This document shows positions 8,050 to 18,154 of a stretch of 23,252 nt of DNA, piece after piece (position 1 is the first letter of the stretch; every line of letters starts with the position of its first letter). The notes below the pieces were generated by a model. That model worked only from the letters and a program-made list of their open reading frames with translations. It was not told where the DNA came from and searched no databases. The translations under genes were made by a program, and so were the position numbers. Source of the DNA: a virus; IMG/VR virus record IMGVR_UViG_3300006802_000601, positions 1 to 23,252 of that record; one strand, given 5' to 3'.

Positions 8050-8152
8050 TTGTTTCTAGCCTTGAGTAAATTGTGCCGTCATCAAAAAGAACATAATGTG
8101 TTTTAACACCATTGTTATTTTCAGTGACGCTGTGGTTTATTAGTTTTTTCAT
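7940..8152 (-). CDS. small hypothetical protein between coiled-coil and polymerase genes
   Basis: 70 aa. The N-terminal part (THYVLFDDGTIYSRLETNEQW) has a plausible folded beta-hairpin character, while the C-terminal 20 residues (NNNGSLKNTSSSNKKSTGKG) are low-complexity and basic. GAGGA lies about 10 nt before the ATG. It overlaps the upstream gene by 32 nt and the polymerase gene by up to 110 nt. I do not recognise it. The low-complexity end lies mostly in the overlap, so the polymerase frame probably constrains it. Confidence 0.55.
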   Translation of the reverse strand: MKKLINHSVTENNNGVKTHYVLFDDGTIYSRLETNEQWQEERPVDVSGYRNNNGSLKNTSSSNKKSTGKG

Positions 8153-8432
8153 AGTTTAGCAGTTCCTCTAGCTTTTCTTCTAATGAAGAATCATTATTGC
8201 ATACAATTTCGTCTATGTCAAGTAGTTTAGCATAGGCTTCATTAGCTTGTTGTAATTTTGCAACAGTAATTTTCCACTGTTTAATTTCTTTGGAAAGTAG
8301 TTGTGTACTCTTCTCAAAAAAGGCAGCATCTACTTCTGCTGACTTTAATGATTGTTTTAAATCATGCACTTGATTCTCTAAGTGGTAGATAACATCATTA
8401 ATGTTTTCATCTTGATATTCATCTTCATACAT
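8121..8432 (-). CDS. acidic coiled-coil protein
   Basis: 103 aa, with a strong AAAGGAG SD 7 nt before the ATG. Residues 10-70 have heptad-like hydrophobic spacing (VIYHLENQVHDLKQSLKSAE and on), followed by an acidic Glu/Leu helix (SLEEKLEELL). No catalytic motif. It is the first gene after the 25-nt conserved element at 8448-8472, which makes it the head of the downstream polymerase-RNR segment. Function unknown; a structural or adaptor role in the replisome is speculation. Confidence 0.7.
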   Translation of the reverse strand: MYEDEYQDENINDVIYHLENQVHDLKQSLKSAEVDAAFFEKSTQLLSKEIKQWKITVAKLQQANEAYAKLLDIDEIVCNNDSSLEEKLEELLNYEKTNKPQRH

Positions 8433-8447
8433 ATTAATTCTCCTTTG

Positions 8448-8472
8448 TTAGGGTGGTAGACATAACGGTATA
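8448..8472 (-). promoter_or_regulatory. 25-nt conserved element, copy 1 (candidate phage promoter or RNA signal)
   Basis: On the minus strand this reads TATACCGTTATG followed by TCTACCACCCTAA, ending 15 nt before the ATG of the coiled-coil gene. An identical 25-nt stretch lies at 16119-16143 on the plus strand in front of the portal gene. Both are in short intergenic gaps, and both lead directly into an SD. Upstream similarity continues loosely (ACAGA, GTA). It has no sigma70 boxes. Confidence 0.75.
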
Positions 8473-8492
8473 TGTGTTACTTCTGTGCTGTG

Positions 8493-10118
8493 TTAGTTCT
8501 CTTCTAAGTCCTCGTCAATCACTTCTTCCATGCGTCCTGTCTTGTGATTATAATACAACGCACAAGCCTTACCTGTCAAGCCTGAATATCTATTTTTAAC
8601 TACTCTGACTCTTGTGGTGTGTCTTTCAACAGGATCATCATTCTGGCTATCTCTTTCCAGACCAAGCACCATATCACTTAGTTGACCTATTGCACCGCTG
8701 CCTCTAAGCTGTGATAGAGATGTAGCTGCGCCATCTTCGTGACCTGTACCACTAGGTCGTTTTAAGTGTGAAACAGCAAAGAGAGTTATATTACACTCCT
8801 GAACCAAGATTCTAAGTCTAGTTGTAATCTCATCTAAAGCTCTTCTCTCATCACCATGTTGCTGATCTGATACTACGATTGATATGTGATCTAAAAAGAC
8901 ATATTTACAAGATAGAGCCTTTGCCATATACCTTACCCTGTTGACTATGTTATCAACAGATGTTGATCCAAACGAATCAAACAAGTAAACCCTGTTAGTT
9001 CCCAGAGTTGACTCAAACGCAAGGTTCTTTTCTTCTTCTGATGCTTCAGTTTCTGATAAGTGTAGTGGCTTATTAGCATCTAAAGACATCAGCGATAGTG
9101 CAGTGCGTTTAACTGACTCTTCTAAAAACAATAAACCAATGTTTTCTTCAGTACTCTTTAAGAGTTTATAAATAATCTCTTTTAAAAATAAAGACTTTCC
9201 GAGTCCTGATCCAGCACACACAGTAACCAATTCACTTGACCTAACTCCGCCAGTAAGATCATTTAAGCCACCAAAAGGGTAGTAAGCTATTGACTTTTCT
9301 AACGGCTCTAGCACCAAGTCTTTCAATGTTGAGCCTGATATAATCCCATCTGGCATAAAAGTTTGAGCAGCCCAAAAGTCTTTGATAAACTCTTGTTGTT
9401 TATTTGCTACAAGGTAATCGTTAGCGTCTTTGAAACCATCTCTAAACTTCATCAACTTAACTTTTTTTGGTGGCAGTAACTCAGCTACTTGAAGCATAGC
9501 ATCTTGCCCTTGCCTATCAGAATCAAATGCAAGCACAATATTAGGAAAGCTGTTTATATATTCATATGCTTCTTTACAACACTTTAAAGAAGAGCCAGCA
9601 CCATCTCTTATAGAAACGTGAGCGCCAACACCGTTTGACATTTGGTATGAAGATAGACAGTCAAGCTCGCCTTCTGAGATCAGTAAATATTTTGCAGAGC
9701 TTGGGAGAAATTTATCGCAGCCAAAGAGTGGCAGTCTTTCAGTATCTTTTGAGTCTGAGCCAACCCAATAAAACCTCTTAGATTTATCTCTGACTTTGTA
9801 AACTGATTTGCCGTAAGGAAACATAATTTTACCAGAGCTATCAACAGTAACATTGTATTTTTCACAAGTAGACCTGGTAATATTCCTATCTGAGAGGCTC
9901 TGAGAAGCTCCTGAAGGGTCTTTTATGGCTTTAGGCTTGATAGACAACACTTCAGCCGTAGAAGGCTGTCTAGGAGCTTCTGATGGCTTTTCTGATGGTG
10001 CTGGAAAATGAGTGTTGCAGCTGAAACAATACTCGTGTCCGTCATCATATACTGCTCTAGCATCAGAAGAGCCACACTTGTCGCAAGGATTACCTGAGCT
10101 TAGTAGTTTACTAGGCAT
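8493..10118 (-). CDS. DNA primase-helicase (T7 gp4-like)
   Basis: 541 aa. The N-terminal zinc-binding domain has C12/C15 and C31/C34 (PCDKC and CFSC). The TOPRIM primase core has E149 (LISEGELDC), D199/D201 (AFDSDRQGQD) and DAND at 231-234. The RecA-like helicase domain has Walker A CAGSGLGKS (301-309), a catalytic Glu pair (FLEES, 331-335) and Walker B ending at D410 (YVFLDHIS). Family members unwind the fork as a hexameric ring and prime the lagging strand. The acidic end (EEVIDEDLEEN) resembles the gp4 tail that contacts the polymerase. AAGGAG lies 7 nt before the ATG, which overlaps the previous gene by 8 nt. Confidence 0.95.
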   Translation of the reverse strand: MPSKLLSSGNPCDKCGSSDARAVYDDGHEYCFSCNTHFPAPSEKPSEAPRQPSTAEVLSIKPKAIKDPSGASQSLSDRNITRSTCEKYNVTVDSSGKIMFPYGKSVYKVRDKSKRFYWVGSDSKDTERLPLFGCDKFLPSSAKYLLISEGELDCLSSYQMSNGVGAHVSIRDGAGSSLKCCKEAYEYINSFPNIVLAFDSDRQGQDAMLQVAELLPPKKVKLMKFRDGFKDANDYLVANKQQEFIKDFWAAQTFMPDGIISGSTLKDLVLEPLEKSIAYYPFGGLNDLTGGVRSSELVTVCAGSGLGKSLFLKEIIYKLLKSTEENIGLLFLEESVKRTALSLMSLDANKPLHLSETEASEEEKNLAFESTLGTNRVYLFDSFGSTSVDNIVNRVRYMAKALSCKYVFLDHISIVVSDQQHGDERRALDEITTRLRILVQECNITLFAVSHLKRPSGTGHEDGAATSLSQLRGSGAIGQLSDMVLGLERDSQNDDPVERHTTRVRVVKNRYSGLTGKACALYYNHKTGRMEEVIDEDLEEN

Positions 10119-10329
10119 TATTAGACTCCTTAATTTTAGAGATAATCTGGTCTAGTGTCATTTGACCACTAGTGCTGAGAGAGTCAACCAAAAACATTAT
10201 CTCTTGTAAATCTTTAAATGCTTGATCTTGCTTTTGTTCTGCAAACCAACCATTGACCAGTTCTTCAGTATCTATGTTATTAATATTGTTATTTTTATTT
10301 AAATTTGTAAATAATTGAGAGTAATCCAT
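10111..10329 (-). CDS. small acidic helical protein before primase-helicase
   Basis: 72 aa from ATG 10329 (MDYSQLFTNL). A longer reading from 10386 is rejected because its first codons lie on the -10 box of the promoter at 10378-10405 and it has no SD. The N-terminus is Asn-rich; the rest is a predicted helix with acidic and hydrophobic spacing (NGWFAEQKQDQAFKDLQEIM). No known motif. It is the first gene after a sigma70-like promoter and overlaps the primase-helicase start by 8 nt, so it is probably co-translated. Function unknown. Confidence 0.6.
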   Translation of the reverse strand: MDYSQLFTNLNKNNNINNIDTEELVNGWFAEQKQDQAFKDLQEIMFLVDSLSTSGQMTLDQIISKIKESNNA

Positions 10330-10377
10330 AATTATCACTTTCTTGTTTAAGTGGTTAAAATTGCTCTTTAGAGAAGC

Positions 10378-10405
10378 ATTATACACATTTATAAAAATCT
10401 GTCTA
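10378..10405 (-). promoter_or_regulatory. sigma70-like promoter for the replication operon
   Basis: Minus strand: -35 TAGACA (10405-10400, 5 of 6 to consensus), 16-nt spacer, -10 TATAAT (10383-10378, perfect). The expected start near 10371 gives a leader of about 40 nt before the ATG at 10329. It lies in the gap between the 58-aa gene and the replication genes. Confidence 0.65.
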
Positions 10406-10424
10406 TAAGTGTTTATACTTAGTT

Positions 10425-10601
10425 TCAGTTCTTTAATTTCTCATAAATTAATTGGTGAATTGGACTTGTTGCTATAATTTCTATATAAACTTCACTCCAA
10501 TTTTCATTATCAATTCCACCATTTTTAAATAATGGTGCTGAAAATAAAGCATTATTAATTAATTTGTAAGCACTTCCAGTTTCTTCGTGTAATAAAATCA
10601 T
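10425..10601 (-). CDS. 58-aa hypothetical protein
   Basis: Short gene with a strong AAAGGAG SD about 7 nt before its ATG; the SD overlaps the stop region of the preceding gene. The product opens MILLHEETGSAYKLINNALF and ends SPIHQLIYEKLKN, a mixed, moderately acidic sequence with two Trp/Tyr-containing segments (NENWSEVYIEII). No motif or family recognised. It is the last gene of the small-gene block before the replication promoter. Confidence 0.65.
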   Translation of the reverse strand: MILLHEETGSAYKLINNALFSAPLFKNGGIDNENWSEVYIEIIATSPIHQLIYEKLKN

Positions 10602-10614
10602 TTTTAAATCTCCT

Positions 10615-10824
10615 TTACTTTAAAAACTTCATGTCTGAGTCATCAAGATAACCAACATCATCATAATTATAACTTAAATCCTCATTGGTTATTAATGATT
10701 CATTGCCATAAACAACAACAGAATTAGGCAGACAACTAGAACACATTTGAACGTACTCATGCGACGTTGTTTTTAAAGAGTTTTCGTAATCTGTAAGAAT
10801 TGTATTGCAAGAAATACACTTCAT
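10615..10824 (-). CDS. small zinc-ribbon-like protein
   Basis: 69 aa. Two CxxC pairs (C3/C6 in KCISCN and C28/C31 in MCSSCL) suggest a four-Cys zinc knuckle or ribbon. An acidic tail (NYDDVGYLDDSDMKF) follows. AAGGAGC lies 8 nt before the ATG, which overlaps the preceding stop (ATGA). Such small Zn proteins in early phage regions can bind host proteins or nucleic acid, but nothing here fixes a target. The tail rich in Asp and Tyr is notable. Confidence 0.7.
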   Translation of the reverse strand: MKCISCNTILTDYENSLKTTSHEYVQMCSSCLPNSVVVYGNESLITNEDLSYNYDDVGYLDDSDMKFLK

Positions 10825-11039
10825 TTGTTTAGCTCCTTGTTAATTAAATCATAGAGATATTTGCAGCTTAAAGCTAATGTAAAGCCACCAAAAGTAGTTA
10901 ACAATAAAGCTATTAAACCAGTTAACTGCAAGTACATAGGTAGCATTTGACAAAATACTAAGCATATTAACAATGTTGACAGAAAAAAACTAATTAACAA
11001 TAAAGTTAATTTAATATTAGTTTTAATTATATATTGCAT
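10821..11039 (-). CDS. two-TM membrane protein
   Basis: 72 aa with two hydrophobic segments, about 11-31 (LTLLLISFFLSTLLICLVFC) and 38-60 (LTGLIALLLTTFGGFTLALSC), short polar ends and a basic N-terminus. AAGGAA lies about 6 nt before the ATG. It follows a 27-aa hydrophobic peptide and is coupled to the zinc-ribbon gene by ATGA. Membrane proteins in this early block could affect superinfection or membrane physiology; this is inference. Family not recognised. Confidence 0.65.
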   Translation of the reverse strand: MQYIIKTNIKLTLLLISFFLSTLLICLVFCQMLPMYLQLTGLIALLLTTFGGFTLALSCKYLYDLINKELNK

Positions 11040-11048
11040 TACAGTTCC

Positions 11049-11132
11049 TTAAAATTGATTAATGTAAATAAATGAAAGTATAGCACAAGATTGCACTACA
11101 AAGAGTAAAATAAATATTAAAAATGTTTTCAT
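11049..11132 (-). CDS. 27-aa hydrophobic peptide
   Basis: The ATG overlaps the preceding stop as ATGA. The product is MKTFLIFILLFVVQSCAILS plus 7 residues: one membrane span with a Cys that does not fit a standard lipobox (Gln at -2). Only a weak AGG lies upstream, so translation would depend on coupling. It fills a gap of almost 90 nt that otherwise has no gene. Real but very small, or chance. Confidence 0.4.
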   Translation of the reverse strand: MKTFLIFILLFVVQSCAILSFIYINQF

Positions 11133-11425
11133 TGGAAAAACCTATATTTTGGTATTAATTGGAATCCTGGACAATCCTTGGCTTGTTTAATTGTGTAAGT
11201 AGTGCCACTAGGAAACTCAAGCAATATGTCACTAATTGCTTGTTGTAGTAGTGGCTGGTACTCATGCGGCACACAGTAGACATATGTAGATTGTTCAGAG
11301 TGGTTGTATATATACACCACAATATCAAGCTCAGAAACTACCCTAGGCGAGGGTTTTAAATCCTTTTTAGGTCTAAATTTGAATTGATGATATCGTGCTA
11401 AATCAATACTAGTTAAGTTAGTCAT
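11129..11425 (-). CDS. hypothetical protein A, paralogue of the gene at 12321-12623
   Basis: 98 aa. It shares with the upstream gene at 12321-12623 the opening SID-A-YHQ, a central V-E-S/D-xx-D-VV-I strand, Y-Y--P, an AI-x-FP stretch and a C-terminal T-KD/A. The copy is divergent, so the duplication is old or under diversifying selection. AAAGG lies 9 nt before the ATG. Together with the B gene upstream it forms one half of a duplicated B-A cassette. Function unknown; no motif of a known enzyme. Confidence 0.7.
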   Translation of the reverse strand: MTNLTSIDLARYHQFKFRPKKDLKPSPRVVSELDIVVYIYNHSEQSTYVYCVPHEYQPLLQQAISDILLEFPSGTTYTIKQAKDCPGFQLIPKYRFFQ

Positions 11426-11427
11426 TG

Positions 11428-11487
11428 TTATTTACCTTTAGTTTGTAGTTTAACAAAATCTAATTTATTTTTAAAATAATCTTTTTT
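11428..11487 (-). pseudogene. decayed C-terminal remnant of a copy of the gene at 11783-12019
   Basis: The gap between B and A reads, in one frame, KKDYFKNKLDFVKLQTKGK then stop. This resembles the end of the intact 78-aa protein (LDYFDNREDAKNFVKLQIKEL), including an identical 18-nt DNA stretch (11442-11459 and 11797-11814). No start codon remains, and an in-frame stop lies just upstream. It marks a third gene that took part in the local duplication and was mostly deleted. Confidence 0.45.
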
Positions 11488-11780
11488 TACTTTCTAAAGT
11501 AACTTTCTAATATACCTTCTACTTCATCAACTATTCCACAAAAATTATCTTCAGATCTTTCACTTTCTTCTGGGTAACATTTATTTTCTACATATGAAGA
11601 AAGCTCAGAATATAATTCAACCCACAATTCTGTTGGTATTTTTATCTTTTTTTCTTTTTCAGCACATTCTTTTCGCCATTCTATTTCACCTTCAACCATA
11701 CTTTTTAATTCATCCACAGACTCCCACAGTTCTTCTTCTGTTAAATTAGATAAGTTATGAATTTCAAAATCTCTAGACAT
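11487..11780 (-). CDS. hypothetical protein B, paralogue of the gene at 12669-12878
   Basis: 97 aa. The C-terminal half (IPTELWVELYSELSSYVE, then NFCGIVDEVEGILESYFRK) matches the gene at 12669-12878 residue for residue at W-V-E-L-Y, F-C-x-I-V-x-x-V-E-x-I-L-E-S-x-F-R-K. The two DNA ends agree at 27 of 30 bases (11491-11520 and 12682-12711). The N-terminal half (NLTEEELWESVDELKSMVEG) is an extra acidic helix absent from the other copy. Strong AAGGAGC SD. Acidic and helical overall; function unknown. Confidence 0.72.
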   Translation of the reverse strand: MSRDFEIHNLSNLTEEELWESVDELKSMVEGEIEWRKECAEKEKKIKIPTELWVELYSELSSYVENKCYPEESERSEDNFCGIVDEVEGILESYFRK

Positions 11781-11782
11781 TT

Positions 11783-12019
11783 TTAAAGCTCCTTAATTTG
11801 TAGTTTAACAAAATTTTTTGCGTCTTCTCTATTATCAAAATAATCTAATACCTCATAAATTGGAGAATCCCAAATTATTGTATCATCAAACTCTTTCCAT
11901 ATTTGAAATTGAGAAGGTTTTTTAATCTTTTTTGCTTTATACAACATTAGTTTTTTAATCCAATACGGATGGCTAAAATCATTCTTAAACACTATAAAAA
12001 ACGGTTTAATTTTCTTCAT
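11783..12019 (-). CDS. small basic hypothetical protein
   Basis: 78 aa. The N-terminal half is basic and aromatic (KIKPFFIVFKNDFSHPYWIK), the C-terminal half acidic (DYFDNREDAKNFVKLQ). AAAGGAG lies 8 nt before the ATG; the gene ends one base before the start of B, and its last codons form the SD for B. A decayed copy of its C-terminus lies at 11428-11487. No family recognised. Confidence 0.65.
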   Translation of the reverse strand: MKKIKPFFIVFKNDFSHPYWIKKLMLYKAKKIKKPSQFQIWKEFDDTIIWDSPIYEVLDYFDNREDAKNFVKLQIKEL

Positions 12020-12035
12020 TTTAAAACTCCTTTAT

Positions 12036-12260
12036 TTATATTTTGTTTAATGTATTTTGTATTTCTTGGTTTATGGTTCTATCATAAGTAATTTGAGTCT
12101 CTAATTTTCTTTGATAGTTCTTTGCCCTAGTTTTTTGTGCAAAATCTTTCATCTCAATAACTGTTTCGATTTTATTACCAAGCCCGTCATTATCAGTCTG
12201 TAATAACCAAACCATATATCTGCCATCACTACCATTTTGATTTATTTTTGTGTGTCTCAT
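12036..12260 (-). CDS. small hypothetical protein
   Basis: 74 aa with a strong AAGGAG SD. It opens MRHTKINQNGSDGRYMVWLL and continues with a basic helix (AQKTRAKNYQRKLETQI). It is the first gene downstream of the sigma70-like promoter at 12290-12319. No motif of a known family. It lies inside the duplicated block but I see no second copy of it. Confidence 0.65.
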   Translation of the reverse strand: MRHTKINQNGSDGRYMVWLLQTDNDGLGNKIETVIEMKDFAQKTRAKNYQRKLETQITYDRTINQEIQNTLNKI

Positions 12261-12289
12261 TTTTAAAGCTCCTTATTTAATATAATAAT

Positions 12290-12319
12290 ATTGTAATCCA
12301 ATTAAAATTAATTTGTCAA
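12290..12319 (-). promoter_or_regulatory. sigma70-like promoter inside the early block
   Basis: Minus strand: -35 TTGACA (12319-12314, perfect), 18-nt AT-rich spacer, -10 TACAAT (12295-12290, 5 of 6). It sits in the 60-nt gap after the stop of the A-type gene and would drive the gene at 12036-12260 and everything to its left. Confidence 0.6.
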
Positions 12320-12320
12320 A

Positions 12321-12623
12321 CTATTCTTTAATTATATAGTCACCGTAATCTTTTACAGTCATTATCCAATCTGTAACATTCTCACTAGGAAAAGCCGTAG
12401 CAATGAAATTGTTTAAACTTTTATTAACATTATCTTTTCTACTAAAAACTTTATCCAAATTGTGATATAAATGTTGAGGTAACAAATACAAATATTTTTT
12501 ACCATGGGTAAAACTCTCTAAAATGACTACCAAATCTTCTTTTGATTCAGCCTCAACAGTTTTAAAATTACCATTCATTTTCACAGTTTCTTGGTGGTAC
12601 AAAGCAATGTCTATACTTAACAT
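12321..12623 (-). CDS. hypothetical protein A', paralogue of the gene at 11129-11425
   Basis: 100 aa from ATG 12623, which has AAAGGA 7 nt upstream; an earlier ATG eight codons up lacks an SD. It shares SID-A-YHQ at the start, then V-ES--D-VV-I, Y-Y--P and A-FPS with its partner. With the B' gene just upstream it forms the second half of the duplicated cassette. No known domain. The two copies are clearly related but differ at most positions. Confidence 0.7.
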   Translation of the reverse strand: MLSIDIALYHQETVKMNGNFKTVEAESKEDLVVILESFTHGKKYLYLLPQHLYHNLDKVFSRKDNVNKSLNNFIATAFPSENVTDWIMTVKDYGDYIIKE

Positions 12624-12668
12624 AATAAATCCTTTCTTAATTAACATAATTAAACTTGATGGTTAATA

Positions 12669-12878
12669 CTAATCATTCTCTTTTCTAAAGTGACTTTCTA
12701 ATATACTTTCAACATCCTCAACAATTTCACAAAACTGGTCTTGCTTGTCCTCAGTGTAACGCTCTACTCCGTTTTCATCTATCTCGAAAACTGGGTCTAG
12801 GGAAGAATACTCAAGAATGTGAGCGGATATTTGGGTGTATAATTCAACCCACACTTCTTCTGGTATTGTTATTTTCAT
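12669..12878 (-). CDS. hypothetical protein B', shorter paralogue of the gene at 11487-11780
   Basis: 69 aa with AAAGGA 7 nt before the ATG. It begins directly at the shared domain (KITIPEEVWVELYTQISAHI) and ends FCEIVEDVESILESHFRKEND, so it is the domain without the N-terminal extension seen in the other copy. Strongly acidic. Function unknown. Small acidic helical proteins are often host-protein inhibitors or DNA mimics in phages, but nothing here demonstrates that. Confidence 0.7.
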   Translation of the reverse strand: MKITIPEEVWVELYTQISAHILEYSSLDPVFEIDENGVERYTEDKQDQFCEIVEDVESILESHFRKEND

Positions 12879-12896
12879 TATTAATCCTTTATTTAA

Positions 12897-13307
12897 TTAA
12901 AATTGTCTAGTTACTTCAAAAACACTACTAACTCTTTTTCTACTATTAGGCTTAACCCAATCTTGAAGTGATCCATCAATATAAGTTGAAACGTGTCCAT
13001 TAGTCATAATTAAAAATATACCCTTAGTGGGTAAATCTCTCACAACTTGGTTAACAGTTTTATTAAAATGAGCTTTCTTAAAACGTGAAACAACACAATT
13101 TAAACTTTCTATGACTGTTAAGTATTGATCTATAAACAAACCTCTTTTATGCTTTCTATTAACTAGCTCTTTAGTCTTACCATAAGCTATCCCAAATGGA
13201 ACTTTACAACTAATAGCAATAGCCACAAGCGTACAAAAGTTAGTATCTTTGTAATGCTTGTGTCCTACCTTTTTCAATTGTTCATAAGTGTACTGTCTAC
13301 GTTTCAT
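12897..13307 (-). CDS. predicted papain-like cysteine peptidase/amidase, first leftward gene
   Basis: 136 aa; AAAGGG lies 9 nt before the ATG. C25 at the start of a hydrophobic helix (DTNFCTLVAIAIS) and H105 followed by D111 (TNGHVSTYIDG) are arranged like the Cys-His-Asp triad of papain-fold proteins. The strand before the His (KGIFLIMTNGHV) and the strand after it are as expected for this fold. The protein is basic elsewhere (NRKHKRG, NSRKRV). It is the first gene after the leftward promoter region, the usual place for host-takeover functions. Whether it cleaves a host protein, a conjugate or nothing at all cannot be told. Not an NlpC/P60 lysin by context. Confidence 0.6.
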   Translation of the reverse strand: MKRRQYTYEQLKKVGHKHYKDTNFCTLVAIAISCKVPFGIAYGKTKELVNRKHKRGLFIDQYLTVIESLNCVVSRFKKAHFNKTVNQVVRDLPTKGIFLIMTNGHVSTYIDGSLQDWVKPNSRKRVSSVFEVTRQF

Positions 13308-13330
13308 TAAATATGCCCTTTAAAATTTTA

Positions 13331-13379
13331 TTATTACTCATTGAATTACTTTAAATTAAAATAATTTAATGAATAATAA
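13331..13379. repeat. 18-bp imperfect inverted repeat in leftward leader
   Basis: Arms 13331-13348 and 13362-13379 pair at 16 of 18 positions around a 13-nt loop. It is almost pure A/T, so stability is low. It lies 24 nt before the first leftward ATG and could affect access to that start. Confidence 0.5.
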
Positions 13380-13384
13380 CATTT

Positions 13385-13439
13385 TGTATAATTATTATAA
13401 CCTGTATTGCATAATCGCAAACACCAGAATAATTATACA
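13385..13439. repeat. 12-bp perfect inverted repeat with 31-nt centre
   Basis: TGTATAATTATT at 13385-13396 and AATAATTATACA at 13428-13439. A minus-strand TATAAT (13399-13394) overlaps the left arm, with only a weak -35, so a secondary leftward promoter is possible. Confidence 0.55.
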
Positions 13440-13479
13440 GCTATTATTCAAATATGGTTAGGAATCTATCACTAATTTG

Positions 13480-13608
13480 ATTAGTCTGGCTCACAATACT
13501 GCTCATAGGCTCTTCAGACAGTTTAAACCGATCAAGGCTAACTATATTACTCATTTGTTAGTCTTGGTTCTATCTTTTCAGAGAGCCTATATGTGTGAGC
13601 CATCTAAT
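13480..13608. other. large three-helix hairpin, possible structured RNA
   Basis: Three nested helices: ATTAG (13480-13484) with CTAAT (13604-13608) continuing as TGGCTCACA (13487-13495) with TGTGAGCCA (13594-13602); ATAGGCTCT (13505-13513) with AGAGCCTAT (13582-13590); CAAGGCTAAC (13533-13542) with GTTAGTCTTG (13557-13566), complete if one G-U pair is allowed in the plus-strand RNA. A TTG-started frame over it (13477-13680) is judged spurious. It could act in RNA on either strand or as cruciform DNA. Confidence 0.6.
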
Positions 13609-13785
13609 AGAACTGGTAATTTACAAACTAACAAACTTACCAACTATATTACAGGAATCGACCAACAAAGCAAGTATTAATATACTAATTATCATTAAAT
13701 AATAGTAATGATATTAATTAATATTACCTAATGATAATCATTAGTAAATCATTGATATGCAATACTAAAGTATGATTAACTGTAT

Positions 13786-13873
13786 TGCACTGTATTAGTG
13801 CATAATGGTACTATGTGGTGCATAACAGACACACGCACCAACACAGTACACAACGCACCAATGTAGTGCATAA
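13786..13873. repeat. short iterated motifs (GTGCATAA x3, ACGCACCAA x2)
   Basis: GTGCATAA occurs at 13798-13805, 13818-13825 and 13866-13873. ACGCACCAA occurs at 13833-13841 and 13853-13861, exactly 20 bp apart. TGCACT/AGTGCA at 13786-13802 forms a small hairpin. The spacing suits repeated protein-binding sites on one face of the helix. Confidence 0.5.
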
Positions 13874-13894
13874 CCGATTAAACTGGCATGATTA

Positions 13895-13908
13895 TTGCTT
13901 GCAAGCAA
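13895..13908. promoter_or_regulatory. 14-bp perfect palindrome over the leftward start site (candidate operator)
   Basis: TTGCTTGCAAGCAA is its own reverse complement. It sits immediately downstream of the leftward -10 box and covers the expected transcription start, where a bound repressor would block RNA polymerase. Confidence 0.6.
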
Positions 13909-13910
13909 CA

Positions 13911-13939
13911 TTTATACCACTATTGAATAACCCTGACAA
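13911..13939 (-). promoter_or_regulatory. leftward sigma70-like promoter (early operon)
   Basis: Minus strand: -35 TTGTCA (13939-13934, 5 of 6), 17-nt spacer, -10 TATAAA (13916-13911, 5 of 6). The expected start near 13904 gives a long leader of about 600 nt, including the large hairpin, before the first leftward gene at 13307. Confidence 0.65.
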
Positions 13940-14048
13940 CATTGTGGCATGATTATTGCATGACAAACTTGGCACAGTTGTTGCTTAGTTCAGTTTTATA
14001 TGGGGGGGTGGGGTAGTGCTGTGCTGTATAATTATGCTGAACCCACAC

Positions 14049-14092
14049 AATCACTAAAAAAGTCAAAATAGGACTTGACAAATCACTAAAAA
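14049..14092. repeat. 12-bp direct repeat at the rightward promoter (candidate operator pair)
   Basis: AATCACTAAAAA at 14049-14060 and 14081-14092, 32 bp apart (about three helical turns). The second copy lies within the spacer between the -35 and -10 boxes; the first lies just upstream of the -35 box. Confidence 0.6.
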
Positions 14093-14103
14093 TATGCTAT
14101 AAT
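14075..14103 (+). promoter_or_regulatory. perfect-consensus sigma70 promoter with extended -10 (packaging/structural operon)
   Basis: TTGACA at 14075-14080, a 17-nt spacer, and TATAAT at 14098-14103 preceded by TGC (extended -10). The expected start near 14110 gives a leader of about 210 nt before TerS. A promoter this close to consensus should fire strongly with host RNA polymerase unless repressed. Confidence 0.85.
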
Positions 14104-14126
14104 CTCTACATTGTATAAAGGGGTAT

Positions 14127-14167
14127 ATAGACAATAAAGACTCAGCACAGAAGTATAACGAACACTC
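14127..14167 (+). repeat. partial copy of the TerS 5' coding end in the leader
   Basis: 41 nt matching 14328-14368 at 35 positions. In the TerS frame it reads DNKDSAQKYNEHS against DNKDSTQSYDEHS in TerS. No start codon is present in the copy. See the finding on this echo. Confidence 0.65.
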
Positions 14168-14169
14168 TT

Positions 14170-14239
14170 GCTCTCAACTTAGACCAATGCGGTCAAGTGG
14201 GATTGAGAGCGTCTCTTGGGATTGAGAGTGATAATCACT
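14170..14239 (+). promoter_or_regulatory. structured leader RNA with alternative hairpins
   Basis: GCTCTCAA (14170-14177) can pair with TTGAGAGC (14203-14210), enclosing a second stem CTT(A)GACC/GGTCAAG (14178-14185 and 14191-14197). The same arm can instead pair with a second TTGAGAG at 14222-14228, since TGGGATTGAGAG is repeated at 14198-14209 and 14217-14228. A palindrome AGTGAT-A-ATCACT follows at 14227-14239. No U-tract, so it is not a simple terminator. Confidence 0.55.
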
Positions 14240-14321
14240 TATAGTTACCATTTAGAACCCTTAAGAACACTTTAGATTAATAAAATCAATATTGATCTAT
14301 ATTAACAATATAGGCAAATCA

Positions 14322-14849
14322 ATGACAATAGACAACAAAGACTCAACACAGAGCTATGATGAACACTCAAAGAATGTTGTATCAGGAGTAACTTCTCTCT
14401 CTCCTTCCTCAACTGAGCCTGAGAAGAGGATTAGAACATATGCAAACAAAGCTAAACAACTAACACCTGTAGGCTCTAAACAGAAACGTAAGCGAGGTAG
14501 ACCCTCTAAGAAAGAGATGGAGTATGTAGCTCTTAAGACAAAGAGAAAGAAAAGCCCTTTAGTATCTAAAAGAGAAGAAACAGCCAAGATCAGAGAACTG
14601 ATGGCTAGAATGTTGATTACTAATGGTGATAGGGTTCTAAAGAAAACTATAGACATAGCTATGCAAGATGAACACCCTCATCAGATGGCAGCACTAAAGC
14701 TACTGATGGATAGAGCATTACCTGTATCTATATTTGAAAAGGATAAACAAGTTAATAAAGGTGTAACAATTAACATATCTAATGTAGCAACAGAACCCCA
14801 ACAAGTCACTATAGACTCTGTAGACTCTATAGAAACAGTAGAACAATAA
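14322..14849 (+). CDS. terminase small subunit (TerS)
   Basis: 175 aa from ATG 14322 (AGG about 9 nt upstream); a TTG at 14292 opens the frame further but lacks support. It lies directly before TerL and overlaps it (TAATG). The N-terminus is polar and disordered-looking; residues 55-64 (KRKRGRPSKK) resemble an AT-hook for minor-groove DNA binding. A helical core follows (REETAKIRELMARML, then PHQMAALKLLMDRALPVS), typical of phage TerS-like proteins that recognise the packaging site and stimulate TerL. Its first codons are echoed in the leader at 14127-14167. Identity rests on position, DNA-binding motif and the helical core. Confidence 0.8.
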   Translation: MTIDNKDSTQSYDEHSKNVVSGVTSLSPSSTEPEKRIRTYANKAKQLTPVGSKQKRKRGRPSKKEMEYVALKTKRKKSPLVSKREETAKIRELMARMLITNGDRVLKKTIDIAMQDEHPHQMAALKLLMDRALPVSIFEKDKQVNKGVTINISNVATEPQQVTIDSVDSIETVEQ

Positions 14850-16102
14850 TGGAATTAGATATTGAGTTGTTAAAGTGGCAACAGAGTGTGTGGAATGACT
14901 CTACAAGGTTTAAGGTAGTAGCTGCTGGTAGAAGAACTGGTAAGTCCAGACTAGCTGCGTATATGCTAATAGTTAATGCTTTACAGACTGAGAAGGGTCA
15001 TGTGTGGTATATAGCCAACACTCAGGGGCAGGCAAGAGATGTTATGTGGTCTACCTTGCTAGAGATAGCACACCCTGTAATAGAATCCTCTCATATTAAC
15101 AACTTACAGATTAAATTAATTAATGGTACTAAGATATCTCTAAAGGGTGCTGATAGACCAGAAACAATGCGAGGAGTGTCACTTAAGTTTGTAGTATTAG
15201 ACGAGTACGGCTCTATGAAGTCTGAAGTATGGGAAACTATTATCAGACCAGCTTTAGCTGACCAGAAAGGCTCTGCGTTGTTTATAGGTACTCCTTTTGG
15301 TCGTAATCACTTCTATGACCTGTATAACTACGCTAACTCTGATAAAGATGAAGAGTTTAAAGCATGGCACTACAGTTCATTTGATAATGAGTTACTAGAC
15401 CCTAAAGAGATAGAAGCAGCTAGAAAGTCTATGTCTAGCTTTGCATTTAGACAAGAATTTATGGCTTCGTTTGAAGCAGCTAGTGGTGGTATATTTAAAG
15501 AAGAATGGATTAAGTTTGATAGAGATGAGCCTAAAGATGGTAGATACTTTATTGCTGTAGACTTAGCTGGTTTTGCTGATGTAGTTCATGCTAACACAGC
15601 TAGAAAGAAAAGACTAGACCAGACAGCCATAGCGGTTGTTAAAGTAGACCAGAATAAATGGTGGGTTAAGTCTATTGAACATGGTAGATGGGGAACAAAA
15701 GAAACAGCACAAAAGATATTTCAAGCTGTATCAGACTATGAGCCAATATGTGTAGGTATTGAGAAAGGCTCATTAAAGAACGCTGTGTTGCCTTACATAT
15801 CAGATTTAATGAGAAAGTACAATAGATACTTTCGTATAGATGATGTTACTCATGGTAACAAGAAAAAGATTGATAGAATTACATGGGCTTTACAGGGTAG
15901 GTTAGAACATGGTAGACTCTATCTTAATAAAGGTAGTTGGAATATGGAGTTTTTAGACCAGTTGTTACAGTTTCCTAACCCACAAGTACATGATGATTTA
16001 GTAGATGCTTTGTCTTATATAGACCAAATACAGATACCAGAATATATGCAACACTATGAAGAAGAAGAGTTTGAACCACTAGACATAGTAGCAGGATACT
16101 AG
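14849..16102 (+). CDS. terL: terminase large subunit
   Basis: 417 aa. The ATPase domain has Walker A AAGRRTGKS (25-33) and Walker B FVVLDE (114-119), followed by the coupling segment FIGTP (145-149). The RNase-H-like nuclease domain has D238 (IAVDLAG), a middle acidic residue around GIEKGS, and D382/D383/D386 (HDDLVDALSY). It packages DNA into the prohead and cuts concatemers. The ATG shares a base with the TerS stop. The length is at the short end for the family, with both domains complete. The acidic tail (YEEEEFEPLD) may contact the portal. Confidence 0.95.
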   Translation: MELDIELLKWQQSVWNDSTRFKVVAAGRRTGKSRLAAYMLIVNALQTEKGHVWYIANTQGQARDVMWSTLLEIAHPVIESSHINNLQIKLINGTKISLKGADRPETMRGVSLKFVVLDEYGSMKSEVWETIIRPALADQKGSALFIGTPFGRNHFYDLYNYANSDKDEEFKAWHYSSFDNELLDPKEIEAARKSMSSFAFRQEFMASFEAASGGIFKEEWIKFDRDEPKDGRYFIAVDLAGFADVVHANTARKKRLDQTAIAVVKVDQNKWWVKSIEHGRWGTKETAQKIFQAVSDYEPICVGIEKGSLKNAVLPYISDLMRKYNRYFRIDDVTHGNKKKIDRITWALQGRLEHGRLYLNKGSWNMEFLDQLLQFPNPQVHDDLVDALSYIDQIQIPEYMQHYEEEEFEPLDIVAGY

Positions 16103-16118
16103 CCAAACTACAGAGTAG

Positions 16119-16143
16119 TATACCGTTATGTCTACCACCCTAA
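16119..16143 (+). promoter_or_regulatory. 25-nt conserved element, copy 2
   Basis: Identical over 25 nt to the minus-strand element at 8448-8472, beginning TATACCGTTATG and ending TACCACCCTAA. It ends 12 nt before the portal ATG and runs directly into the AAAGGA SD. It is in the 53-nt gap between TerL and portal. Confidence 0.75.
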
Positions 16144-16155
16144 AGGAATAGCAAT

Positions 16156-18129
16156 ATGTATAATGAAAGTTTTTCAGTAAACCCTTTAGTATCATGGGTA
16201 CTAGGTCAATGTGACCAATGGAGAGTAAACAGAGATACTAACTATCTTGACACATGGAAAGAGTATGAAAGGCTCTGGAGAGGCATATATGACTCTTCTG
16301 ATCGCACCAGAGACTCTGAGAGGTCTCGTATCATTACTCCTGCTCTACAACAGGCTATAGAGGCTCATACAGCAGAAATAGAAGAAGCTGTGTTTGGTAG
16401 AGGTGAAAAGTTCTTTGATATCTCTGATGATAGAATAGATATTCAAAAACTTGATATAGAAGCTATCAGAAACCAAATGACAGAAGATTTTAAAAAAGGA
16501 TATATTAGAAAATCTATATCAGATATAATACTGTTATCTGCTTTATATGGTACAGGTATTGGTGAAATAACTGTATATGAGAAGAAAGAACTAAAACCAG
16601 CTATGCAACCTATCATAGAATCTGGTAATACTGCTGTTGGTGTAATAGAACAAGAAAGATTCTGTGTTGGCTTAAAACCAATTACACCATACAACTTCTT
16701 AATTGATCCTACAGCTTCTAATGTTCAAGAAGCTCTTGGTTGTGCTATAGAAGAGTTTGTATCACTACACTCTGTAACACAAGCTATGGAAGATGGTGTA
16801 TATAATACTATTACAGACTTATCTTCTACTTCTGTTGATTCTGACTTAGAAGTATCTCAGGAAGTATCAGACTATGGAGGTAATAGAGTAAAGTTATTAA
16901 GGTACTATGGACTCATACCAAAGTATATGTTAGATAATCAAGATAATGAAGATAAGTACCAAGAGTTATTTAACAAGAAGTCAGATGAGTATGGTTCAGA
17001 AGCAGCAGACTACACAGACTTAGTAGAAGCAATAGTTGTTATAGCTAATGATGGTCATTTATTAAAAGCAGAAGAATCTCCATATATGATGAATGACAGA
17101 CCTATAGTAGCTTTTCAAAGCGATACCATACCTAACAGGTTCTGGGGTCGTGGTATAGCTGAAAAAGGTTTTAATATGCAAAAAGCTATTGATGCACAAA
17201 TAAGGGCACACTTAGATAGTGTAGCTTTATCTACTGTGCCTATGATGGCTATAGATGCTACTAGACTACCTAGAGGAGCTAAGTTTGAAGTTAAAGCTGG
17301 TAAAACAATACTTACTAATGGCAATCCAGCAGAAATACTACAACCATTTAAGTTTGGTAATACTGATCCATCTAACATAAATACTGCTAGTAGCTTTATG
17401 AATATGTTACTAATGGCTACCAGTACAGTAGACAGTGCTTCTTTACCTGCTATGACTACAGGTGAAGGACAGGGAATGTCAGTAGCTTTATCATCAATTA
17501 TAAAAAAGAACAAAAGAACTTTAGTAAACTTTCAAGAACAATTTTTAATTCCTTTTGTTACTAAAGCTGCTCACAGGTTTATGCAGTTTGATCCTGAAAG
17601 ATATCCTGCACAAGACTTTGTATTTGTACCTTCTAGTAACTTAGGTATAATAGCAAGAGAACATGAACAAATGCAATTCCTTAATTTATTAAAAACATTA
17701 GGAGCAGAATCACCTATAGTTCCTTTGATACTATCAGCAGTTATAGAAAACTCTGGTTTAAGTAACAGAGAAACACTTATAGCACAGTTACAACAGATGA
17801 TGCAACCTGATCCACAACAAGCACAAGCTCAACAGGCAGCTATGCAAATGGAAATGCAGAAAACACAACTAGAATTAGCTGATTTACAGGCAGATATACA
17901 GCTAAAACAGGCTAAAACACAGTCTGAAGCAGTAGAAACACAGCTAAAACCTACAGAAATGCAAGCAAAAGTAGCTGCTAGTGCTTCTAAGTACTTAGGA
18001 GAGGCTGATGATCCTACAAAAGAGTTTGAAAAGCGTATAAAACTAGCTAATGTTGCTTTAAAAGAAAAAGATATAGATACAAAAGCAAGAATAGCAGAAT
18101 TACAGCTACAATCTTCAAGAAACACTTGA
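16156..18129 (+). CDS. portal protein
   Basis: 657 aa; AAAGGA lies 8 nt before the ATG. It is located between TerL and scaffold, the standard portal position, and has a size typical of podovirus-like portals. The early segment (WKEYERLWRGIYDSSDRTRD, then SRIITPALQQAIEAHTAEIEE) and RFWGRGIAEKGFNMQKAID in the middle are characteristic of portal proteins of marine podoviruses as I know them. The C-terminal 130 residues are Gln-rich and coiled-coil (QAQQAAMQMEMQ, then QLELADLQADIQLKQAKTQS), fitting the barrel at the inner end of the dodecameric ring. Its stop codon lies in the -35 box of the next promoter. Confidence 0.9.
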   Translation: MYNESFSVNPLVSWVLGQCDQWRVNRDTNYLDTWKEYERLWRGIYDSSDRTRDSERSRIITPALQQAIEAHTAEIEEAVFGRGEKFFDISDDRIDIQKLDIEAIRNQMTEDFKKGYIRKSISDIILLSALYGTGIGEITVYEKKELKPAMQPIIESGNTAVGVIEQERFCVGLKPITPYNFLIDPTASNVQEALGCAIEEFVSLHSVTQAMEDGVYNTITDLSSTSVDSDLEVSQEVSDYGGNRVKLLRYYGLIPKYMLDNQDNEDKYQELFNKKSDEYGSEAADYTDLVEAIVVIANDGHLLKAEESPYMMNDRPIVAFQSDTIPNRFWGRGIAEKGFNMQKAIDAQIRAHLDSVALSTVPMMAIDATRLPRGAKFEVKAGKTILTNGNPAEILQPFKFGNTDPSNINTASSFMNMLLMATSTVDSASLPAMTTGEGQGMSVALSSIIKKNKRTLVNFQEQFLIPFVTKAAHRFMQFDPERYPAQDFVFVPSSNLGIIAREHEQMQFLNLLKTLGAESPIVPLILSAVIENSGLSNRETLIAQLQQMMQPDPQQAQAQQAAMQMEMQKTQLELADLQADIQLKQAKTQSEAVETQLKPTEMQAKVAASASKYLGEADDPTKEFEKRIKLANVALKEKDIDTKARIAELQLQSSRNT

Positions 18130-18154
18130 CAAAACAGTAAAAGTGTGTTATAAT
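18126..18154 (+). promoter_or_regulatory. perfect-consensus sigma70 promoter giving a near-leaderless mRNA
   Basis: TTGACA at 18126-18131, a 17-nt spacer, TATAAT at 18149-18154. The portal stop TGA is inside the -35 box. The expected start at about 18160-18162 is only 3-5 nt before the ATG at 18165. An ACACTT/AAGTGT dyad (18122-18127, 18141-18146) spans the -35 region. Confidence 0.85.

Follow-up and report, generated by a model that had tools for sequence, protein, structure and literature searches.

A repeated 25-nt element next to Shine-Dalgarno sequences in an uncultured phage lineage: a putative leader signal

Described start-proximal repeats and the present element

Short, asymmetric and conserved sequences located directly before the start codons of unlike genes are known from Cluster K mycobacteriophages as Start-Associated Sequences (SAS/ESAS) (PMC3203893). 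The SAS is 13 bp long (GGGATAGGAGCCC), includes the Shine-Dalgarno core and occurs in 11–19 copies per genome, nearly always in one orientation. Some sites carry imperfect inverted repeats without RNA covariation, and the function of the sequence is unproven (PMC3203893). The halovirus HF2 contains intergenic repeats of 29 and 58 bp, which are conserved in sequence and position within the virus genus, have AT-rich motifs and display promoter activity in reporters (PMC8707807).

Here we analyzed a virus record of 23,252 bases (hereafter the window), which is probably a fragment. A first-pass annotation of its sequence had pointed out a 25-mer, TATACCGTTATGTCTACCACCCTAA, ahead of two genes on opposite strands. 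The nearest parallel to this element is the SAS: like it, the element keeps a constant position and orientation directly ahead of gene starts in all contigs that carry it. However, the element measures 25 bp, adjoins but mostly excludes the Shine-Dalgarno sequence, is present in one or two copies and by inspection shows no sequence kinship with the SAS. As the two differ in sequence, in copy number and in whether the Shine-Dalgarno core is included, we do not claim that the element belongs to this group. Like the HF2 repeats it is short, intergenic and conserved, but it has no recognised promoter motif. The mobile regulatory cassettes of T4-type phages, reportedly described by Arbiol et al. 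in 2010, a paper that PMC4177764 cites, are said to be short intergenic regulatory sequences at gene-turnover junctions, composed of an early promoter plus a stem-loop. Both junctions of the element show gene turnover; no promoter or stem-loop was found at them. T7-type phage promoters are of similar length and also lie before genes; in contrast, the phage studied here has no detected polymerase gene and too few copies of the element, which presumably does not resemble the known T7-type promoter consensus either.

The exact repeat reported by the first-pass annotation was confirmed at both positions (Table 1), and no longer inverted repeat than this pair occurs in the window. No further copies within 3 mismatches were found elsewhere in the window. 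In 100 dinucleotide shuffles of the window the 25-mer did not occur within 3 mismatches, and the chance expectation for inverted 25-nt pairs is about 1.7e-6, in line with the statement of the annotation that a chance repeat is very unlikely. Independent assemblies also carry the copies, L110/G004 the minus one (G004 is 99.4% identical over 12.6 kb) and L016 the plus one, and the element is therefore not an assembly artefact. The 3′ ends of both copies lie 0–2 bases ahead of the Shine-Dalgarno sequence, and both copies have the same orientation relative to the next gene, as had been noted before. The coiled-coil-like gene behind the minus copy precedes the DNA polymerase segment. A megablast search against cultured phages resulted in no match, and portal relatives among cultured phages are about 25% identical.

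Table 1. Coordinates of the features discussed (positions in the window unless another contig is named).
Feature	Position	Strand	Basis or remark
Element, portal copy	16119..16143	+	exact match; also before the portal in about 20 related contigs
Element, second copy, ahead of coiled-coil-like gene	8448..8472	-	exact match; also in G004, absent in G001/G006/G007
Shine-Dalgarno AAGGA of portal gene	16143..16147	+	sequence
Shine-Dalgarno AAAGGAG of coiled-coil-like gene	8440..8446	-	sequence
Portal gene, downstream of plus copy	16156..18129	+	phrog_1216, E 2.9e-38
Terminase large subunit, upstream of plus copy	14849..16102	+	phrog_2, E 9e-43
103-aa coiled-coil-like gene, downstream of minus copy	8121..8432	-	weak coiled-coil matches, below cut-off
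Primase/helicase, upstream of minus copy	8493..10118	-	phrog_239, E 8e-157
Imperfect dyad of portal copy	16115..16138	+	sequence; 7/9 positions; not kept in minus copy
Perfect sigma70 promoter ahead of gene at 14292	14075-14103	+	TTGACA-17-TATAAT, 12/12 hexamer bases; kept in relatives
Perfect sigma70 promoter at portal end	18126-18154	+	TTGACA-17-TATAAT, 12/12 hexamer bases
Sigma54-type (-24/-12) clusters, control region between divergent arms	window 13884-13984; L003 2914-3105; L020 3638-3779; L105 11569-11669; L045 7358-7391	+ (window)
18-nt repeats in leaders of small early genes	11442/11797 and 11778/12258	-
C5 cytosine DNA methyltransferase gene flanked by 17-bp repeats	L112 5501-6841	+
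G-run GGGGGGnGGGG, then TGCTGAACCCACAC	14000-14060		conserved in clade
Duplicated start of gene at 14292	14126-14170 vs 14327-14371		about 85% over 41 nt
Palindrome CTAATGATAATCATTAG	about 13728-13746		resembles Fur box, by eye

Occurrence in relatives and gene turnover at the junctions

Searching viral contigs, we found the exact 21-mer of the element in 12 of them. A looser 17-mer matched 24 contigs, including a few chance hits in sequences that are not related. Still looser patterns added only matches outside the context of the element, which look like chance. A host-derived origin was rejected, as the single match in genome_contigs, an unrelated Muribaculaceae contig, is no more than the chance level. 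Altogether, the search of related phages that the first-pass annotation had suggested placed the element in about 20 contigs ahead of the portal gene or of a small gene inserted before it, in a single orientation throughout. The exception among the recognisable homologues is that of G004, which corresponds to the minus copy of the window. A gene located between the element and the portal uses the element as its own leader in L004 and G005, the latter with a small insertion within the element, and L003 contains two tandem copies 43 nt apart. When aligned, ten distinct versions share the core ATACCsTTATGTsTACCACyC, in which only 3 of the 21 positions are variable.

The 50 nt upstream of the portal gene are among the best-conserved stretches near the junction. 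What lies to the left of the element varies by lineage (the end of the terminase, of other genes or of the helicase), while on the right the Shine-Dalgarno sequence serves as a fixed anchor. When the window is compared with a clade whose portal is 81% identical, agreement at the 4-fold sites of this gene is about 0.62. The element is nonetheless retained in L003, where the 4-fold sites of portal codons 1–40 agree at 4/9. Agreement in the same codons is 10/11 in the L020-type clade, and conservation there reaches about 100 nt into the portal gene, so that recent local exchange could account for part of it. For the portal copy, the general idea that a conserved signal acts in cis on the gene behind it is supported. 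The copy at 8448 is limited to the window and one near-identical contig (G004).

Relatives that lack the element before the orthologous genes, which the first-pass annotation had named as grounds for refuting its reading, were found as well, and this objection thus holds in part. G001, which is 93–98% identical to the window over most shared parts and whose 34.2 kb are probably complete given a 77-bp repeat near the ends, contains neither copy, and the portal copy is missing in L015, L017 and L030 despite a portal identity of 99–100%. In these contigs and in G001 an extra gene occupies the portal junction, with its stop 4 nt ahead of the portal start. The absence of the element from them indicates that it is not essential. 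Portal relatives at 70% identity or below do not carry it either. The minus copy is absent in G001, G006 and G007; a C5 cytosine DNA methyltransferase gene lies at the helicase junction of G001 and G006, and G007 aligns with the methyltransferase version. Other small genes without the element are present at this junction in G003 and G010, both of the 81% clade. As relatives have the methyltransferase gene or other small genes there, the copy at 8448 is probably derived. A homing-endonuclease target was discarded, since the helicase-junction gene of the relatives encodes this methyltransferase and the portal-junction genes, including the extra one (197 aa in G001), match no family. Comparison of the window with G001 showed at both junctions that homology ends near the upstream stop codon and restarts at the 3′ end of the element.

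The gap between the upstream stop and the next start is 34–92 nt in all element-bearing portal junctions and 0–18 nt in most element-free ones. The starts that the script assigned to L042 and L061 seem to be placed too far downstream, and L049 has a gap of 34 nt without the element. The longer gaps are consistent with an independent start of the next gene that the element would allow; this reasoning is in part circular, since the gap is taken up by the element.

Other leaders of these phages also contain repeats. The methyltransferase gene of L112, at the junction that bears the element in the window, is located between 17-bp repeats of the following gene's leader (AACAAAGGAGAATTAAT), and that of G006 is flanked by 17-bp leader repeats. 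In the window, small early genes have 18-nt repeats in their leaders, which suggests that leaders get copied along with genes.

Readings of the element

Our preferred and still tentative reading, to which we assign a probability of roughly 45%, is that the element is a putative clade-specific, start-associated and cis-acting leader signal for the next gene. A start-associated signal is what remains when the identity of the copies, their constant place and orientation, the conservation at the portal gene and the absence of a detected phage RNA polymerase and of a conserved hairpin are considered together. From its place just before the Shine-Dalgarno sequence, the element may affect how the next gene is expressed, probably by offering a binding site, either in the leader of the mRNA or in the adjacent upstream DNA. 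The next gene would then start independently where it is uncoupled from the preceding gene. The second copy may have arisen when the portal leader element, or a similar one from a relative, was moved by recombination to the junction of the helicase and coiled-coil-like genes. If the element does affect the gene that follows, it would be a small and portable signal for expression in a lineage of uncultured phages without an identified close relative in culture, and would show how compact phage operons keep working amid gene turnover at their junctions. Its practical use lies mainly in annotation, as it marks the portal leader of the clade. It is unlikely that the element represents a new kind of transferable leader, which moves between junctions by recombination and gives any following gene an independent start of expression; if it did, genes could be gained or lost at a junction without breaking the expression of the essential gene behind.

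The main rival, which we consider doubtful, is that the element has no regulatory role and is a spacer which recombination has kept and spread, serving as a short boundary in common that marks and aids gene swaps at junctions. Both sites are points of gene turnover, with the methyltransferase at the helicase junction and unrelated small genes at the portal junction, and both the other intergenic repeats of the genome and the 17-bp repeats around the G006 methyltransferase gene fit this view. However, a spacer is expected to decay, yet only 3 core positions vary across lineages in which about 60% of the 4-fold sites are identical. In L003 the portal codons have diverged next to an undiverged element, and the orientation toward the next gene never changes.

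The element had been described as lacking a dyad, which holds for the minus copy. When the portal copy is extended by 4 bases leftwards, it contains an imperfect 9-bp dyad, GTAGTATAC-CGTTAT-GTCTACCAC (16115–16123 / 16130–16138). Such a dyad, which is found in most portal copies and is best in copy 2 of L003 (8/9), and the tandem copies of L003 would be in keeping with an operator at which a dimeric regulator of the phage or the host binds DNA through inverted half-sites like GTrGTAkAC. We regard an operator as improbable nevertheless: the left half-site is absent from the minus copy and from L022/L023, neither copy is overlapped by a promoter-like site, and no regulator gene was identified.

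The contiguous length of about 21–25 bp and the location before genes would also suit a promoter, used either by a single-subunit RNA polymerase of the phage, as the first-pass annotation had considered, or by the host enzyme with an uncommon sigma factor. This explanation is very unlikely. A PF00940 search for single-subunit RNA polymerases, which recovered that of T7 at 1e-109 as positive control, gave no match in the window, itself a fragment, and in nine other phage records including the apparently complete G001 and relatives of 31–38 kb. No RNA polymerase gene was detected in the window, G001, G002, G003 and G015. Since the most complete relatives thus show no such enzyme, the element is probably not a start site of a phage RNA polymerase. 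In addition, the element occurs 0 or 1 time per relative genome and twice in the window. None of the listed sites with sigma70 -35/-10 hexamers at 16–18 nt overlaps either copy, which agrees with the absence of sigma70 boxes noted before, whereas perfect sigma70 promoters, with TG before the second hexamer, lie elsewhere. The presence of such promoters in the phage makes transcription of the structural genes by host sigma70 likely.

Least probable is an RNA hairpin in the leader that acts in translation control, processing or termination, one form of the RNA signal proposed earlier: folding energies reach -7.8 (L003 copy 2) and -5.5 kcal/mol (G-type versions), but the portal leader of the window folds no better than its own shuffles (z 0.8), pair counts show no compensatory change or covariation at any pair, the stem is lost in two versions, a U-run is absent, and the element has no Rfam match and is not among the terminator-like sites. 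A leader peptide within the element (ATG TCT ACC ACC...) was dismissed, as the CCC/CCCC difference between versions breaks the frame and no Shine-Dalgarno sequence of its own is seen by eye.

Control region between the divergent arms

The control region of the window contains three exact matches to the sigma54-type sequence TGGCAYRN4TTGC on the plus strand, at positions 13884, 13945 and 13970 (shuffle mean 0.08). Many relatives display similar clusters at the same place on one or both strands, and 17 of the 21 distinct TGG-N8-TTGC sequences in the compared control regions fit TGGCAYR. Some of the sites form convergent pairs, which makes palindromic operators an alternative. No enhancer-binding protein (PF00158) was found in the phages. 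A literature search returned no report of a phage carrying an array of this type, which does not prove that it is new. These clustered sequences may matter more than the 25-nt element.

A stretch at 14002–14030 had been called loosely similar to the element. It proved to be the complement of the conserved G-run (Table 1), and relatives keep the G-run, not the resemblance. In the clade, the G-run has the sigma54-type sites on one side and the sigma70 promoter on the other. The palindrome of the control region that resembles a Fur box may be due to chance in AT-rich DNA. A duplicate of the beginning of the gene at 14292 lies upstream of it and resembles a truncated gene copy in its leader.
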